Assembly: GCA_902524535.1 (NCBI GenBank)
Contig: CABZDR010000001.1
Span: 124,001 to 188,000 of the forward strand
Origin: an uncultured Pelagibacteraceae bacterium
Lineage (GTDB): Bacteria; Pseudomonadota; Alphaproteobacteria; Pelagibacterales; Pelagibacteraceae
Length of the DNA: 64,000 nt
Reading direction: 5' to 3'
The notes beneath the pieces were generated by a model that was not told where the DNA came from, did not search any database, and was given only the letters and a program-made list of their open reading frames with translations. The position numbers and the translations under genes were made by a program. Shown one piece after another: positions 32,959 to 38,813 of this stretch. The first letter of the stretch is position 1. Each line of letters starts with the position of its first letter.

Positions 32959-33402
32959 ATGGAAATAGCAGTTTTAGCATTAGGATGTTTTTGGGGACCA
33001 GAAATTAAATTTAGTAAAATCGATGGAATTATCAAAACTGAGGTTGGTTATTGTGGTGGCGATAGCCCTACAACTACTTATAAAGAAGTATGCACAGGTA
33101 ACACAAACCATGCTGAAGTTGTCAAACTTGATTTTGATGAAAAAATAATAAGCTATGAAAAGATTTTGAAAATTTTTTTTCAAATCCATGATCCAACTAC
33201 TTTAAACTCTCAAGGGCCAGATTTTGGTACACAATACAGAAGTGAGATTTTTTACTTAAATGATAAGCAAAAAATTATAGCTGAAGAAGTGTTGAAAGAT
33301 ACAAATGAAAGATTATCAGGGAAAGTTGTTACAAAAATTTCTTTACTTAAGAATTACTGTACAGCTGAGGAATACCATCAAAAATATTTAGAAAAAAGAT
33401 AA
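32959..33402 (+). CDS. msrA: Peptide-methionine (S)-S-oxide reductase MsrA
   Basis: MsrA reduces methionine-S-sulfoxide in oxidised proteins or free methionine. The 147 residues contain the active-site GCFWG with Cys10, EVGYCGG near 29-35, the HAEVVKLDFD block, and YFxIHDPTT as FFQIHDPTTLNSQGPD. The gene is short but within family range. A further cysteine lies in NYCTAEEYHQKYL near the C-terminus and may resolve the disulfide. It is followed two bases later by sseA. Confidence 0.93.
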   Translation: MEIAVLALGCFWGPEIKFSKIDGIIKTEVGYCGGDSPTTTYKEVCTGNTNHAEVVKLDFDEKIISYEKILKIFFQIHDPTTLNSQGPDFGTQYRSEIFYLNDKQKIIAEEVLKDTNERLSGKVVTKISLLKNYCTAEEYHQKYLEKR

Positions 33403-33403
33403 A

Positions 33404-34219
33404 ATGTCTCTGGTAGAAACTGACTGGCTAGATCAAAATCTTAATGACGTCAAAGTAATTGATTGTTCATGGCATATGCCCCAAACTAAAAGAGTTGGTT
33501 TCGAAGAATACAAAAAAGTGCATATTCCAAATGCAATTTTTTTTGATCTAGATAAAAATTCAAAAAAAAATACTAGCTTACCTCATATGTTAGTAGAAAA
33601 AACAGACTGGGAAGAAATAGTATCTAAAATGGGAATTAAAAATGATGATAAAATCATCATTTACGATAACTCTGATGTTATTAGCTCATGTAGATGTTGG
33701 TTTAATTTTATTTATTTTGGACACAACTCTGAAATGGTCCATGTGTTAAATGGGGGATTAAAAAAATGGATAAAAGAAAAAAGAAAAATTACTGAGGATT
33801 TAAAGAAAATTGAAATAAGTGAATACAAAGGATCAGAAAATAAAGAATTGATAAAAAATATGATAATGATTGATCAAAATATAGATACGCAAGAATTCAA
33901 AGTAATTGATGCAAGAAGCAGAGAAAGATTTGAAGGAAAAATACCAGAGCCAAGAAAGGGTTTGCGAAGTGGTAATATAAAGAATTCTTGGTGTTTGCCT
34001 TTTAATGAATGTTTAAATGATGACAAAACTTTCAAAAACAAAAAAGATCTTCAAATGATTTTTGATGCTTATATAAAAAATAGTCAAGAAACAGAGATTG
34101 TTTTCTCATGTGGATCTGGTGTTACTGCATGTGTTTTGGCACTAGCTTATTCTTTAATAAATGATAAATATCGTCCATGTATTTACGATGGCTCTTGGGC
34201 TGAATATGGAAAAATTTAA
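33404..34219 (+). CDS. sseA: 3-mercaptopyruvate/thiosulfate sulfurtransferase
   Basis: The 271-residue enzyme has two rhodanese domains. The N-terminal one is inactive-like; the C-terminal one carries the catalytic Cys236 in FSCGSGVTACVLAL, a loop typical of mercaptopyruvate sulfurtransferases (CGSGVTA). The VIDARSRERFEG and IPEPRKGLRSGNI blocks precede it. It moves sulfur from 3-mercaptopyruvate to thiol acceptors. It is next to msrA and upstream of the RND genes in one direction. Confidence 0.92.
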   Translation: MSLVETDWLDQNLNDVKVIDCSWHMPQTKRVGFEEYKKVHIPNAIFFDLDKNSKKNTSLPHMLVEKTDWEEIVSKMGIKNDDKIIIYDNSDVISSCRCWFNFIYFGHNSEMVHVLNGGLKKWIKEKRKITEDLKKIEISEYKGSENKELIKNMIMIDQNIDTQEFKVIDARSRERFEGKIPEPRKGLRSGNIKNSWCLPFNECLNDDKTFKNKKDLQMIFDAYIKNSQETEIVFSCGSGVTACVLALAYSLINDKYRPCIYDGSWAEYGKI

Positions 34220-34225
34220 ACGAAT

Positions 34226-35095
34226 ATGAAAAGATCTACAAAAATTATTTCTATTATATCAATATTTTTTTTAATTATAGCAAGTGTGATAATTGCGAGA
34301 GCAATGATTGGTAGCCACTTCAAAAAAAAATTCAGCAAACAACCACCCCCGGGAATAATAGTTACCGAGGTAAAAAAACATGAATTTTCTGAAAAAATAG
34401 AAACTTTTGGGACTGCTGTTTCAAAAAGATCTAAAACTTTTAAAATTAAGAAAGAAGATCTATATGAGGATTTGAAATTCAAAGATTTTGTAAAAGAGGG
34501 TGATATTTTAATAAAGCTTAAAAGTGGAAATATCTTAGCTCCTTTTGATGGTGTACTAGGATATACTGGCTTAACTGAAGATATACTTGTTTCTGACAAT
34601 ATATTCATAATAACACTAGACGATAACTCAACAATCTATTCAGATATAAAAATTCCTGAAAATTATTCTGCATCTATTCAAAAAGAGTTGCCTGTAGATG
34701 TGAGGATTTCAAGTTATAAAGATAAAATTTTTCAAGGTGAAATAGATTTTGTCTCAAGCAGAATAAATGCAGATACAAGAAGTTTATTATGTAGAATTAA
34801 AGTAAAAAATGAAAATTTAGAATTAATTTCAGGATCTTTATTAGAAGTGAGTATTAAATTTAATTTAAGAAATTCTGTAGGAGTGCCAGATACGAGTATT
34901 ATGGTAGAAGGTGATAAATCATTTGTCTATAAGATTTCAGACAAAAATATTGCAAATAAAATAAATGTCACTACAGGGATAAGATCTAATAAAAATATTG
35001 AAATTATCTCTGGGTTAAATGAAGGGGACATTATAGTGGCCGAAGGTCTAAAAAAAGTTCGACCTAAAGGGAAAATTAAACCTATAATCAAATAA
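34226..35095 (+). CDS. RND efflux periplasmic adaptor, reduced form
   Basis: A 289-residue membrane-fusion protein with one N-terminal membrane anchor (about 7-27). The lipoyl half-motifs are joined directly: VKEGDILIKL is followed a few residues later by GNILAPFDGVLGYTG, with no coiled-coil hairpin between them. Later beta-barrel and membrane-proximal segments (NADTRSLLCRIKV, VPDTSIMVEGD) are present. It is adjacent to the RND pump, whose ATG follows the stop immediately. The missing hairpin is unusual because that part normally contacts the outer-membrane channel; Borrelia BesA is a known example of the same reduction. Confidence 0.88.
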   Translation: MKRSTKIISIISIFFLIIASVIIARAMIGSHFKKKFSKQPPPGIIVTEVKKHEFSEKIETFGTAVSKRSKTFKIKKEDLYEDLKFKDFVKEGDILIKLKSGNILAPFDGVLGYTGLTEDILVSDNIFIITLDDNSTIYSDIKIPENYSASIQKELPVDVRISSYKDKIFQGEIDFVSSRINADTRSLLCRIKVKNENLELISGSLLEVSIKFNLRNSVGVPDTSIMVEGDKSFVYKISDKNIANKINVTTGIRSNKNIEIISGLNEGDIIVAEGLKKVRPKGKIKPIIK

Positions 35096-38000
35096 ATGTT
35101 CATCACTGAATTAAGCATTAAAAGACCAACAGTATCCTGGGTAATGTCTCTAATTTTAATTATTTTTGGTTTATTCGTTTTTTGGAAATTACCTGTTAGA
35201 GAGCTACCAAGTGGTATTCAGCCACCAGTTGTTCAGGTACAAGTTGATTACAAATCTGCTTCAGCTTCTATTGTTGATCAAGAGATAACTCAAGTAGTAG
35301 AAGATGTCATCGGCGGTGCAGAAGGTATAAAAAATATTGACTCTAAATCAGAGAATGGAAGAAGCACTATAAACATTGAATTTGATACAAGCATAGATTT
35401 AGATAATGCTGCGAATGATATTAGAGAGCGTGTAGCAAGAATTACTGACAATCTTCCCTCTGAGTCTAATCCTCCCCAAATATTGAAAAGAGCAGCGGGC
35501 TTTACAACAACAATGTGGTTATCTTTGTCATCATCAACTTGGAGCGATTTAGAACTAGGAGATTATGCTGAGCGTTTTTTAATAGACCAATTTTCTAGTG
35601 TAAAAAATGTTGGGAGAATAAGAGTTGGAGGATTAAGAGAGCTGAGTATAAGAGTATGGGTTGATCCAATTAAATTAGCAGCAAATGACCTGACTATACA
35701 AGAAGTTGAAATCGCATTACGTGGGGAAAATATAAGTCTACCAGCCGGAACGCTAGAAGCAGATAATATTGATCTTACTTTAAATTTAGATAAATCTTAC
35801 AACGATATTGAGTCCATTAAACAATTACCTATAAAAAAAAATGACAACAAGGTTATTTTATTATCAGATGTTGCAAATATAGAATTCGGCCCAGTTTCAG
35901 AAAAAACTCTTTTTAAAGCTCAAACAAGAGATCAAATAAATTTAAAGACTGTTGGAATAGGTATTTATGCAAAAAGTGGGGCTTCCACAGTTGAACTTTC
36001 AAAAAATATTAAAAAAAAAATCATTGAGGTTAAAAAGTCTTTGCCTGAAGAACTAGATTTAAGAGTCTCTTTTAATAGGGCAAATTATGTTGAAGCGGCC
36101 ATTGAAGAAGTTTACAAAACTCTCATAATTGCTTTTGTTTTAGTTGTATTAATAATTTACTTATTCTTAGGAAGCCTAAAAGCGGTAGTGGTACCTGCCA
36201 TTGCTTTACCTGTTAGTTTAATAGCCTCATTTTTAGGACTTTATATATTTGGACTATCAATAAATATTTTTGTTCTCTTAAGTTTTATCCTGGCAATAGG
36301 CATTATTACTGACGACTCGGTGATTATGACAGATGCAATATACAGAAGGATAGAAAACGGAGAAACACCTTTAGTGGCAGCATATAGAGGTTCTAAACAA
36401 ATTTCATTTGCGATAGTAGCCACAACTTTAATTTTGGTAGCTGTTTTTTTACCTCTGATTTTTATAGAGGGTATAACAGGAACGTTGTTTAAAGAAACTG
36501 CCATCGCATTGTCTTTTTCAATTATTATATCCTCTTTCGTAGCACTGACCTTATCACCAATGCTTGCAAGTAAATTTTTAAACAAGAAAAAATCTAAGAA
36601 AATTTTTGTTCAAAAATTTGATAAAATCTTTTCTAGTTTTTCTAATTTTTATGAGGATTCATTAGAAGTTGTTATAAATAAAGCTAAATCAGTTGGTGTT
36701 TTTATAATATTCATAATGATCACATCAGCGTTATTATTTAATTTTTCAAAGAAAGAATTGTTGCCTATGGAAGACCGTGGAGCTTACTTAATTATTGGAG
36801 CAACTGATGAGGGAAGTTCATTTGAGTATACTCAAGAGCAAGCTCAAAAGGTTGAGGCAAGGTTGCTTCCGCTCCTCCAAGCTGAGAATAGTCCATATTC
36901 AAGATTTATAATGAGAGTTCCAGGTTTTGGAAATTCTGCGAATTCATATAATAGTTTTATAATTATTGCTCTCCTCGATGATTGGAAAAAAAGGGAAAAA
37001 AGTCAGCAAGTTGTCCTTAGAGAAGCAATTGGAAAAATTGTAACTTTACCACAGGCTTTAGCATTCCCTATATCGCCTCAATCAATACGAGTATCCAACT
37101 ACAACAAACCTGTTCAGATGGTAATCTATGGAAATACTTATGATGAATTAGAGTTAATACAAAAAAAAATAATTAGAGCACTCAGATCTAATAAAAATTT
37201 ATCAAGAGTTGAGTCAGATTACAATCGGAATAAACCTGAAGTAAAATTAATTGTAAATAAAAATAAAGCTAAAGATCTAGGAGTTTCAACTAAAACAATA
37301 GGTGAAACGCTTGAGACTTTATACGGTGGCAAAAAGATCACAACCTTTAATAAATTAGGCAAAGAATACCCAATAATTGTTCAGCAATACATATCTGATA
37401 GGAGAAACAAAGATGGAATTTCTAAAATATTTGTGCGTTCTGAAACAAACACAAAACTGATTTCAATGGCAAATCTTATAAGTTTTAAGAATGAAGGAAC
37501 TGCTAAACAACTGGCTCGATATAATCGACAAAGAGCAGTGACTATCTCGGCAAACATAAATGAAGGCTATACTTTAACTGAAGCAATAAATTTCTTTGAA
37601 AATGTAATGTCCGATATAGCCCCAAAAAATCAAATTACTTGGAAGGGAAAATCTGAGGAAATTAAGGAAACGAGTAATGAATTATTTATGATATTTGCTT
37701 TAGCCTTACTGACTGCTTATTTAGTAATGGCTGCAACATTCAACTCTTTTATACATCCATTTATAATAATACTGACTGTCCCATTGGCTATTTTTGGAGG
37801 ATTAGTATTTATTCTTTTTTTAAATAGTTCAGTGAATATTTTTTCTCAAATCGCTTTGATCATACTAATAGGCATTTCAACAAAAAATAGTATTTTAATT
37901 GTCGATTATGCTAATCAAATAAGAGCAACAGGAAAAAATATTATTTCAGCAGTTAAAGAAGCGTGTTTAATAAGATTTAGACCTATAATAATGACATCAT

Positions 38001-38224
38001 TAAGTACAATGATCGCGATGTTACCTTTAGTTATAGGAAATATTGGCCCAGGTGCTGGGGAAGGTTCGAGATTAGCAGTAGGTTCAACAATCTTAGGAGG
38101 AATGATAATTTCAACATTTTTTACTTTATATGTTACACCAACAATGTATCTAGCATTAGCTAAAAATACCAAAAGAATTGACTCGGTTGATTTAGAGCTA
38201 AGGAGAGAATTGTTTAAAAAATAA
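35096..38224 (+). CDS. RND-family efflux transporter permease (AcrB/HAE1 type)
   Basis: The 1042-residue proton-driven pump has the standard 12-helix layout with two large periplasmic loops. Proton-relay residues are present: the Asp-Asp pair in IITDDSVIM in the fourth helix and the lysine in ISTKNSILIVDYA in the tenth. The N-terminus (MFITELSIKRPTVSWVMSLIL) is typical. It is coded directly after its adaptor; no outer-membrane TolC-like gene lies nearby. Substrates cannot be predicted. It overlaps the convergent lipoprotein gene by eleven bases. Confidence 0.95.
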   Translation: MFITELSIKRPTVSWVMSLILIIFGLFVFWKLPVRELPSGIQPPVVQVQVDYKSASASIVDQEITQVVEDVIGGAEGIKNIDSKSENGRSTINIEFDTSIDLDNAANDIRERVARITDNLPSESNPPQILKRAAGFTTTMWLSLSSSTWSDLELGDYAERFLIDQFSSVKNVGRIRVGGLRELSIRVWVDPIKLAANDLTIQEVEIALRGENISLPAGTLEADNIDLTLNLDKSYNDIESIKQLPIKKNDNKVILLSDVANIEFGPVSEKTLFKAQTRDQINLKTVGIGIYAKSGASTVELSKNIKKKIIEVKKSLPEELDLRVSFNRANYVEAAIEEVYKTLIIAFVLVVLIIYLFLGSLKAVVVPAIALPVSLIASFLGLYIFGLSINIFVLLSFILAIGIITDDSVIMTDAIYRRIENGETPLVAAYRGSKQISFAIVATTLILVAVFLPLIFIEGITGTLFKETAIALSFSIIISSFVALTLSPMLASKFLNKKKSKKIFVQKFDKIFSSFSNFYEDSLEVVINKAKSVGVFIIFIMITSALLFNFSKKELLPMEDRGAYLIIGATDEGSSFEYTQEQAQKVEARLLPLLQAENSPYSRFIMRVPGFGNSANSYNSFIIIALLDDWKKREKSQQVVLREAIGKIVTLPQALAFPISPQSIRVSNYNKPVQMVIYGNTYDELELIQKKIIRALRSNKNLSRVESDYNRNKPEVKLIVNKNKAKDLGVSTKTIGETLETLYGGKKITTFNKLGKEYPIIVQQYISDRRNKDGISKIFVRSETNTKLISMANLISFKNEGTAKQLARYNRQRAVTISANINEGYTLTEAINFFENVMSDIAPKNQITWKGKSEEIKETSNELFMIFALALLTAYLVMAATFNSFIHPFIIILTVPLAIFGGLVFILFLNSSVNIFSQIALIILIGISTKNSILIVDYANQIRATGKNIISAVKEACLIRFRPIIMTSLSTMIAMLPLVIGNIGPGAGEGSRLAVGSTILGGMIISTFFTLYVTPTMYLALAKNTKRIDSVDLELRRELFKK

Positions 38225-38813
38225 TATATTTATTCTTATTAAGATTATTTTTACATCCAGACAGTTGTTTTTTATAAATATTAGACTGTTTCTCTACTTT
38301 TTTGGCTAATTTAATCACTTTTTTATTTTTTTTATAATATTTATAATTTCCCCATCCCTCATGATAAGCAAGATACTGTCTAAATGCATCTTTTTTTGAA
38401 ATTTTGAGAATATTTTCAGTTTTACTTGTATACCATCCAATAAAATCAACACTGTCCTTAAATCTCGCTCTTGTTGCAAATTTATTTCCTGTTTCTTTTT
38501 TATACTGTTCCCATGTCCCTCTAACTGCCTGTGAATATCCAAATGAGCTTGAGGGTCTTTTAAAAGGTATTACTTTAAAAATTTTTTGTCTTGGAGGCTT
38601 AGCTAACCAGTCAAAATCGGACTCCATTTTAATTATTGCTAATTGAATATATATCGGTGTACCCCATTCTCTTTCTACCTTTTTGGTATGTTTGTACCAG
38701 AGATATCTTTCATTAAAAATAGAACAGCTATTAGCTGTATTATTAGGTATTGATGAGCATCCAGTTAGTAAAAATATAATTAAGATTAATAATTTATTTT
38801 TTAAAATAACCAT
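38214..38813 (-). CDS. Lipoprotein with lysozyme-like (SLT-type) domain
   Basis: A 199-residue protein with a lipoprotein signal ending LIIFLLTGC (Cys near 19). The domain has IKMESDFDWLA (a candidate catalytic glutamate) and SSFGYSQAVRGTWEQYKKETG, which resemble the ES and GxxQ segments of soluble lytic transglycosylases. The C-terminus is basic and lysine rich. It probably acts on peptidoglycan at the outer membrane. The next gene, VanZ-like, overlaps by 20 bases. Confidence 0.78.
   Translation of the reverse strand: MVILKNKLLILIIFLLTGCSSIPNNTANSCSIFNERYLWYKHTKKVEREWGTPIYIQLAIIKMESDFDWLAKPPRQKIFKVIPFKRPSSSFGYSQAVRGTWEQYKKETGNKFATRARFKDSVDFIGWYTSKTENILKISKKDAFRQYLAYHEGWGNYKYYKKNKKVIKLAKKVEKQSNIYKKQLSGCKNNLNKNKYIIF

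Follow-up and report, generated by a model that had tools for sequence, protein, structure and literature searches.

The joint between the alpha-helical hairpin of the periplasmic adaptor and the TolC-type channel is regarded as the core of tripartite pump assembly. Passages of three papers place a Val-Gly element at the channel tips, and its glycines, in contact with the adaptor hairpin (PMC5404916, PMC6447562, PMC4069162). For MexAB-OprM, excerpts of one of these report that no complex formed once the corresponding glycines, G199 and G407, had been replaced by alanine, and that MexA L100 lies near the Val that follows each tip Gly of OprM (PMC6447562). The Val before the Gly is not indispensable, since MdsC pairs with a hairpin adaptor despite turns of the sequence Thr-Gly-Asn and Glu-Gly-Val, according to a passage of another (PMC4069162).

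The only solved exception to this joint that we found in the literature is BesA, described in 2013. That paper, by Greene et al., notes similar sequences in Borrelia, Treponema and Spirochaeta and rarely in proteobacteria such as Legionella; it gives the length of the AcrA hairpin as 47 Å, proposes a closer approach of channel and pump in BesABC, and leaves room for a further protein that provides the hairpin or closes the joint in the case of BesA (PMC3807786). BesA does not occur in the main text of a 2026 adaptor review (PMC13328181), and no publication on hairpin-less SAR11 adaptors was found in the open-licence PMC literature. While a hairpin-less adaptor architecture is known, its fixation in Pelagibacteraceae (SAR11) as the usual sole adaptor, combined with a changed TolC tip, appears to be new.

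The adaptor locus and the extent of the missing hairpin

The window (the whole stretch of 64,000 nucleotides analysed here) comes from a SAR11 genome of 1.11 Mb in 7 contigs and carries an adaptor gene that adjoins its own RND permease gene without a gap. The features of the locus are as follows.

32959..33402, + strand: peptide methionine sulfoxide reductase gene (msrA; Pfam PMSR), which opens an apparent four-gene run
33404..34219, + strand: rhodanese-like protein (Pfam Rhodanese), ending 6 bases before the adaptor start
34226..35095, + strand: RND periplasmic adaptor (membrane-fusion protein) without alpha-hairpin, 289 aa (profiles, alignment, AlphaFold2 model)
34232..34330, + strand: N-terminal helix of the adaptor, residues 3-35 (model secondary structure and sequence), the presumed inner-membrane anchor
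34490..34561, + strand: stretch VKEGDILIKLKSGNILAPFDGVLG from one lipoyl half to the other, spanning residues 89-112; its 24 aa compare with 85 aa in the aligned outgroup adaptors (alignments)
34520..34528, + strand: K99-G101 turn, in place of the 60-61 residue hairpin of relatives (model and alignment)
35096..38224, + strand: RND permease, 1042 aa (Pfam ACR_tran), beginning right after the adaptor stop codon

The four genes follow one another on the same strand, separated by 1, 6 and 0 bases in the list of open reading frames. By eye in such lists, 18 of 19 other SAR11 stretches have a rhodanese gene immediately before the adaptor gene, and 16 of the 19 have msrA there as well; a link of the pump to sulfur or oxidative stress would be a guess from these neighbours. 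Converging on the end of the permease gene is a Transglycosylase SLT_4 gene with a lipoprotein-like start (38214-38813, − strand), and SLT_4-like genes occupy the same place in many of the SAR11 stretches read. The adaptor matches TIGR01730 (RND_mfp) with 136.4 bits against a cut-off of 94.9, the match starting at profile position 130, and also matches Pfam HlyD_D23 and HlyD_3. Its sequence has no N-terminal cysteine or lipobox.

The earlier note had described the two halves of the lipoyl motif as joined almost directly, and the sequence bears this out: VKEGDILIKL (residues 89-98) and NILAPFDGVLG (residues 102-112) are only three residues (KSG) apart. From VKEGD to GVLG the stretch measured 24-25 aa in all 21 Pelagibacteraceae adaptors aligned, from eight genera (truncated adaptors at L138-L140 were left out of the counts), and the same short junction was seen by eye in a ninth SAR11 genus (L131). 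In contrast, it measured 85 aa in 26/26 adaptors encoded beside the closest non-SAR11 alphaproteobacterial permeases, which are 39-43% identical to the window permease, and again 85 aa in 28/28 when the top non-SAR11 loci were taken from 398 genomes drawn across Pseudomonadota; the non-SAR11 rows listed from that draw have open frames of at least 344 aa. Hence 60-61 residues are absent from the SAR11 adaptor relative to these proteins. The alpha-helical hairpin with RLS motif that marks canonical four-domain adaptors of the AcrA/MexA type is missing, 24 aa standing where they have 85. An RND adaptor without its hairpin, as the earlier note had proposed, is what these alignments show.

We also searched 385 genomes of the class with a profile of the SAR11 junction, which could miss unrelated hairpin-less adaptors elsewhere in the class. 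It matched in 38 genomes at E ≤ 1e-5, and the full direct junction was confined to the five SAR11 genomes in the draw plus G550. Among the 24 other aligned loci, some of them again from genomes of earlier sets, 23 had 85 aa and one had 99 aa. The G550 locus (L176, contig C23) has SAR11-like adaptor and permease genes in a genome of another family; because it shows SAR11 gene order and 27% GC, we read it as probably misbinned SAR11 DNA.

Of 397 genomes in the order, 340 contain a sequence relative of the adaptor; 11 of the 340 are weak matches in the order's other family (f2), as at L141 and L143 (E 1.6e-5 and 1.4e-4). Completeness is 83-94% in the 15 Pelagibacteraceae genomes listed as lacking one. 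In the permease tree, 20 SAR11 rows (one fewer than the adaptors, as G158 with its split permease frame was left out) lie on one side of a fully supported branch. We take this to reflect a single hairpin loss on the SAR11 stem, the exact branch not being fixed, since f2 has no close match to the system.

A sequencing deletion had been named in the earlier note as one way in which the missing hairpin could prove spurious. It is ruled out by the constancy of the short junction across SAR11, with the same length class in 21/21 adaptors and no insertion in 38 aligned SAR11 adaptor rows (289 columns) from many assemblies. The structure prediction suggested in the same place agrees. AlphaFold2 run on the 38 SAR11 rows gave two good and three poor models of five (mean pLDDT 76, pTM 0.55); strands E94-98 and E101-104 are predicted to flank the junction with no helix between them, and no hairpin is predicted. 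With Foldseek, TMexC was the first match and BesA chains took ranks 2-7 (4kku_C, E 1.1e-12), while VIA-align put BesA first with Z 13.8 over 218-225 residues, a tie with TMexC and CusB at 13.4. The predicted fold is therefore best described as a hairpin-less RND adaptor, and the order among adaptors is not to be over-read.

Permease and TolC partners in SAR11 genomes

The permease keeps D406, D407, K930 and R962, which align with the AcrB proton-relay positions, and the same D, D, K and R are aligned in 20/20 SAR11 permeases. Comparison of 20 SAR11 with 26 outgroup rows revealed no SAR11-wide insertion in the aligned docking regions, and a compensating insertion there was rejected as an explanation. 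A local insertion of five to six residues is present at permease residues 279-283 (DQINL, window 35930-35944); it is shared by most g1 rows and by g6, g7 and g9, and is not found in other SAR11 rows or in the 26 outgroup rows.

One full permease (PF00873) was found at the adaptor-pump locus in 21 of 26 SAR11 genomes, the exceptions being G158 (split frame), G300, G132 and G159 (partial) and G139 (none). In G158 (L269:2560-5666), a single-contig genome with an intact adaptor, the permease frame is split into 519 and 580 aa. A TolC-type channel (PF02321) was present in 26/26 Pelagibacteraceae genomes, as a single copy in 25 and as two in G011. The earlier note had found no channel gene nearby, which holds for the stretch around the adaptor gene; the same genome does have a TolC gene, at the start of contig C1, where the contig edge cuts it off. 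In the SAR11 genomes searched, tolC lies away from the pump genes except in G388 (L256:4585-7105, contig C8), where it is divergent from the adaptor-permease pair at a distance of ~350 bases and msrA and rhodanese are not upstream.

Adaptor profiles, which can miss divergent members, gave few other candidates. With PF13437, no adaptor besides the hairpin-less one exceeded the cut-off in 18/20 SAR11 genomes (G001 and G054 each had one sub-cut-off match), the exceptions being G011 and G333, while each of five f2 genomes had 1-6 matches. The type I secretion adaptor profile TIGR01843 exceeded its cut-off in none of the 20 SAR11 genomes, nine of which had weak partial matches of at most 24.5 bits, and four of the five f2 genomes were positive. 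In the genome of the window, two weak TIGR01730 matches (L002, L003) were rejected as further adaptors, being by eye lipoyl domains like those of dehydrogenase complexes. The extra frames of G011 (C1:893743-921280) are adaptor-like and accompany a second outer-membrane factor (657 aa frame) in an apparent export island. G333, one of the 21 genomes with a full permease at the locus, also has a hairpin-bearing adaptor with an AcrB-like permease among genes unlike those of SAR11 (L273, C12:99500-108000), on the same contig as the SAR11 locus; this second RND system is probably a chimera or contaminant and was set aside. Taken at face value, these profile counts would leave TolC in most SAR11 genomes with no partner other than the hairpin-less pump.

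We compared the TolC tips of 22 SAR11 genomes out of the 26 with a match (the TolC of the window's own genome is truncated, its first tip reading R-G, and no TolC locus entered for G158, G159 and G388), of seven f2 TolCs and of an outgroup of 30. The outgroup consisted of the best match from each of 30 genomes, out of 33/34 genomes with a match; the adaptor was measured in 22 of these genomes and in two more as part of further sets, and an outgroup TolC may have a partner other than the pump by which its genome was chosen. In SAR11 TolC the counterparts of E. coli V146-G147 and V364-G365, by alignment, are R173-G174 and S379-G380. The residue before the Gly at tip 1 was R (12), K (7), N (2) or S (1) in SAR11, V (6) or A (1) in f2, and V (25), L (4) or Q (1) in the outgroup; at tip 2 it was S (16), T (4), A (1) or N (1) in SAR11, V (7) in f2, and V (26) or L (4) in the outgroup. 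Val or Leu before the Gly is thus gone at both tips in 22/22 SAR11 TolCs, against its presence in 29/30 (tip 1) and 30/30 (tip 2) outgroup sequences, while the Gly itself is kept in 21/22 and 22/22 SAR11 sequences, respectively. Tip 2 is one residue longer in 15/22 SAR11 TolCs and in 0/37 others. In the TolC tree, SAR11 groups with f2 against the outgroup set (SH-aLRT 97, midpoint root); because f2 kept Val, the tip change most likely occurred on the SAR11 stem, as far as this tree and alignment indicate.

Ranked by conservation, the top three non-overlapping windows of 15 residues in SAR11 TolC all fall at the tips. Entropy of the two tip segments was 0.85 and 0.80 in SAR11 versus 0.62 and 0.64 in the outgroup, and for whole TolC 1.55 versus 1.84. 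The higher tip entropy despite less varied SAR11 rows is compatible with a new contact but also with a degree of relaxation, which is possible at the SAR11 tips on these values.

Other features of TolC were considered as marks of hairpin loss or compensation for it and rejected. Longer helices do not compensate, as the landmark spans equal the outgroup values, save for 1-3 fewer residues before tip 1 (11/22) and the extra tip-2 residue (15/22). Shortening of the C-terminus is not specific, the seven f2 TolCs also being short (4 residues; SAR11 2-23). Nor is the absence of Asp at the second gate (the D374 equivalent, where 22/22 SAR11 TolCs have Q, N, T or S), since six of seven f2 TolCs lack it as well. 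At the gate positions equivalent to D153, R367, Y362 and T152, SAR11 TolCs have Asp in 22/22, Arg in 21 and Lys in one, Tyr in 22/22, and a varying residue (S12, T6, A4), respectively. The Tyr at the Y362 position (L167 and others) stands against mostly Ala (19) and a single Tyr in the 30 outgroup sequences.

How the pump might reach TolC

We lean, by a little, towards a three-part pump that works with the genome's TolC, in which the altered TolC tips, instead of a hairpin joint, contact the adaptor lipoyl ring and/or the pump funnel. The adaptor ring would sit on the RND pump; the TolC tips, changed at both Val-Gly turns, would seat on the lipoyl ring and/or the RND funnel; this tip contact would drive TolC opening; and TolC and pump would come closer together, as a passage of Greene et al. 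proposed for BesABC (PMC3807786). The last step follows from the dimensions: with the AcrA hairpin of 47 Å missing and neither TolC nor pump lengthened, TolC and pump would need to approach each other. TolC helices of outgroup length and a permease with no SAR11-wide insertion mean that nothing visibly fills the space of the hairpin. We infer that adaptor, RND and TolC form one complex with the tips as the new contact. The fuller claim is held more tentatively, a little short of probable: that Pelagibacteraceae have a tripartite pump with no tip-to-tip hairpin docking, arisen independently of that in Borrelia, and that TolC, usually the only one in the genome, has acquired through co-evolution tip turns of a new kind, which dock directly on the lipoyl ring or the RND funnel. 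Since all SAR11 data represent one lineage, there is a single coincidence of hairpin loss with tip change and no repeated pattern. The earlier note had offered direct barrel contact with the outer-membrane channel or a pump working without a channel. The option that keeps TolC is favoured by the presence of TolC in 26/26 genomes and the lack of another adaptor over the cut-off in 18/20; contact through the barrel itself is hypothetical.

A two-part pump is the next candidate, unlikely in our judgement but deserving of weight. Here the adaptor and RND would move substrates, or lipids, only into the periplasm, and TolC would serve something else, for example an exporter with an unrecognised adaptor. 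The hairpin being the usual grip on TolC, its loss with no compensating insertion in pump or TolC is what such a pump would show; tolC and the pump genes are not neighbours, either in the window or in the other SAR11 loci read (G388 excepted), and the tip segments are somewhat less conserved than those of the outgroup. However, a TolC-type channel is retained throughout these small genomes, hardly any of which have another adaptor and none a type I secretion adaptor above the cut-offs (18/20 and 20/20 negative), and the tips remain the most conserved part of SAR11 TolC, which implies a partner. Distinctly improbable is an additional protein acting in trans to provide the hairpin or close the joint. 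Such a protein would overcome the problem of length, and an extra protein on TolC pumps does exist (YbjP entries in the Foldseek listing); against it, the 6 bases before the adaptor and none before the pump leave no room for a small hairpin gene, and the four neighbours scanned, at this locus only, match or approach known families. A decaying gene or an assembly or sequencing artefact, for which the reduced state of SAR11 genomes and the split permease frame of G158 might speak, is already contradicted by the invariant junction (21/21 adaptors, 38 rows, many assemblies) and the proton-relay positions kept in 20/20 permeases, and can practically be dismissed.

SAR11 are among the most abundant marine bacteria, and this abundance would make the hairpin-free exception widespread. 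SAR11 also offers natural sequence variation and genomes that as a rule encode a single adaptor and a single TolC, and the TolC positions equivalent to E. coli V146 and V364 make hairpin-free TolC recruitment directly testable.

Comparison with known systems

By single-sequence search the best solved-structure match of the SAR11 adaptor is MexJ (PDB 20yy), which ranks second by profile. MexJ has 347 aa in the PDB entry, and the aligned relatives of the SAR11 adaptor carry the hairpin in their 85 aa stretch. Within the same order of bacteria, f2 has an RND cluster (L141, L143) made up of TolC, a regulator-like frame, an adaptor and two RND permeases; this adaptor, of 357 aa and hairpin-bearing by eye, is encoded near a TolC and two permeases and matches the SAR11 adaptor only weakly.

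The nearest architecture is BesA of the Borrelia burgdorferi BesABC system (PDB 4KKS, 4KKT, 4KKU). As in the SAR11 adaptor, a short loop replaces the hairpin while lipoyl, barrel and membrane-proximal domains are there, the SAR11 side of this likeness coming from fold matches, model and alignment. BesA, which the earlier note had cited as the precedent, is thus apt as a mechanism and an architecture but does not look like a close relative by sequence: when solved structures were searched with the SAR11 adaptor profile, the matches at E ≤ 1 included chains with a hairpin but no entry for BesA. With the nearest sequence relatives carrying hairpins and BesA unmatched, the losses in SAR11 and Borrelia look independent on sequence grounds. 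The two systems also differ in detail. BesA is described as carrying a lipidation site and besC as part of its operon (PMC3807786), whereas the SAR11 adaptor begins with a helix and lacks a lipobox, and SAR11 tolC lies elsewhere in the genome; of the loci read, G388 alone has it as a divergent neighbour. BesC has disrupted gates and a truncated C-terminus according to a passage of a review (PMC4446572), in contrast to SAR11 TolC, which keeps the equivalents of D153 and R367.
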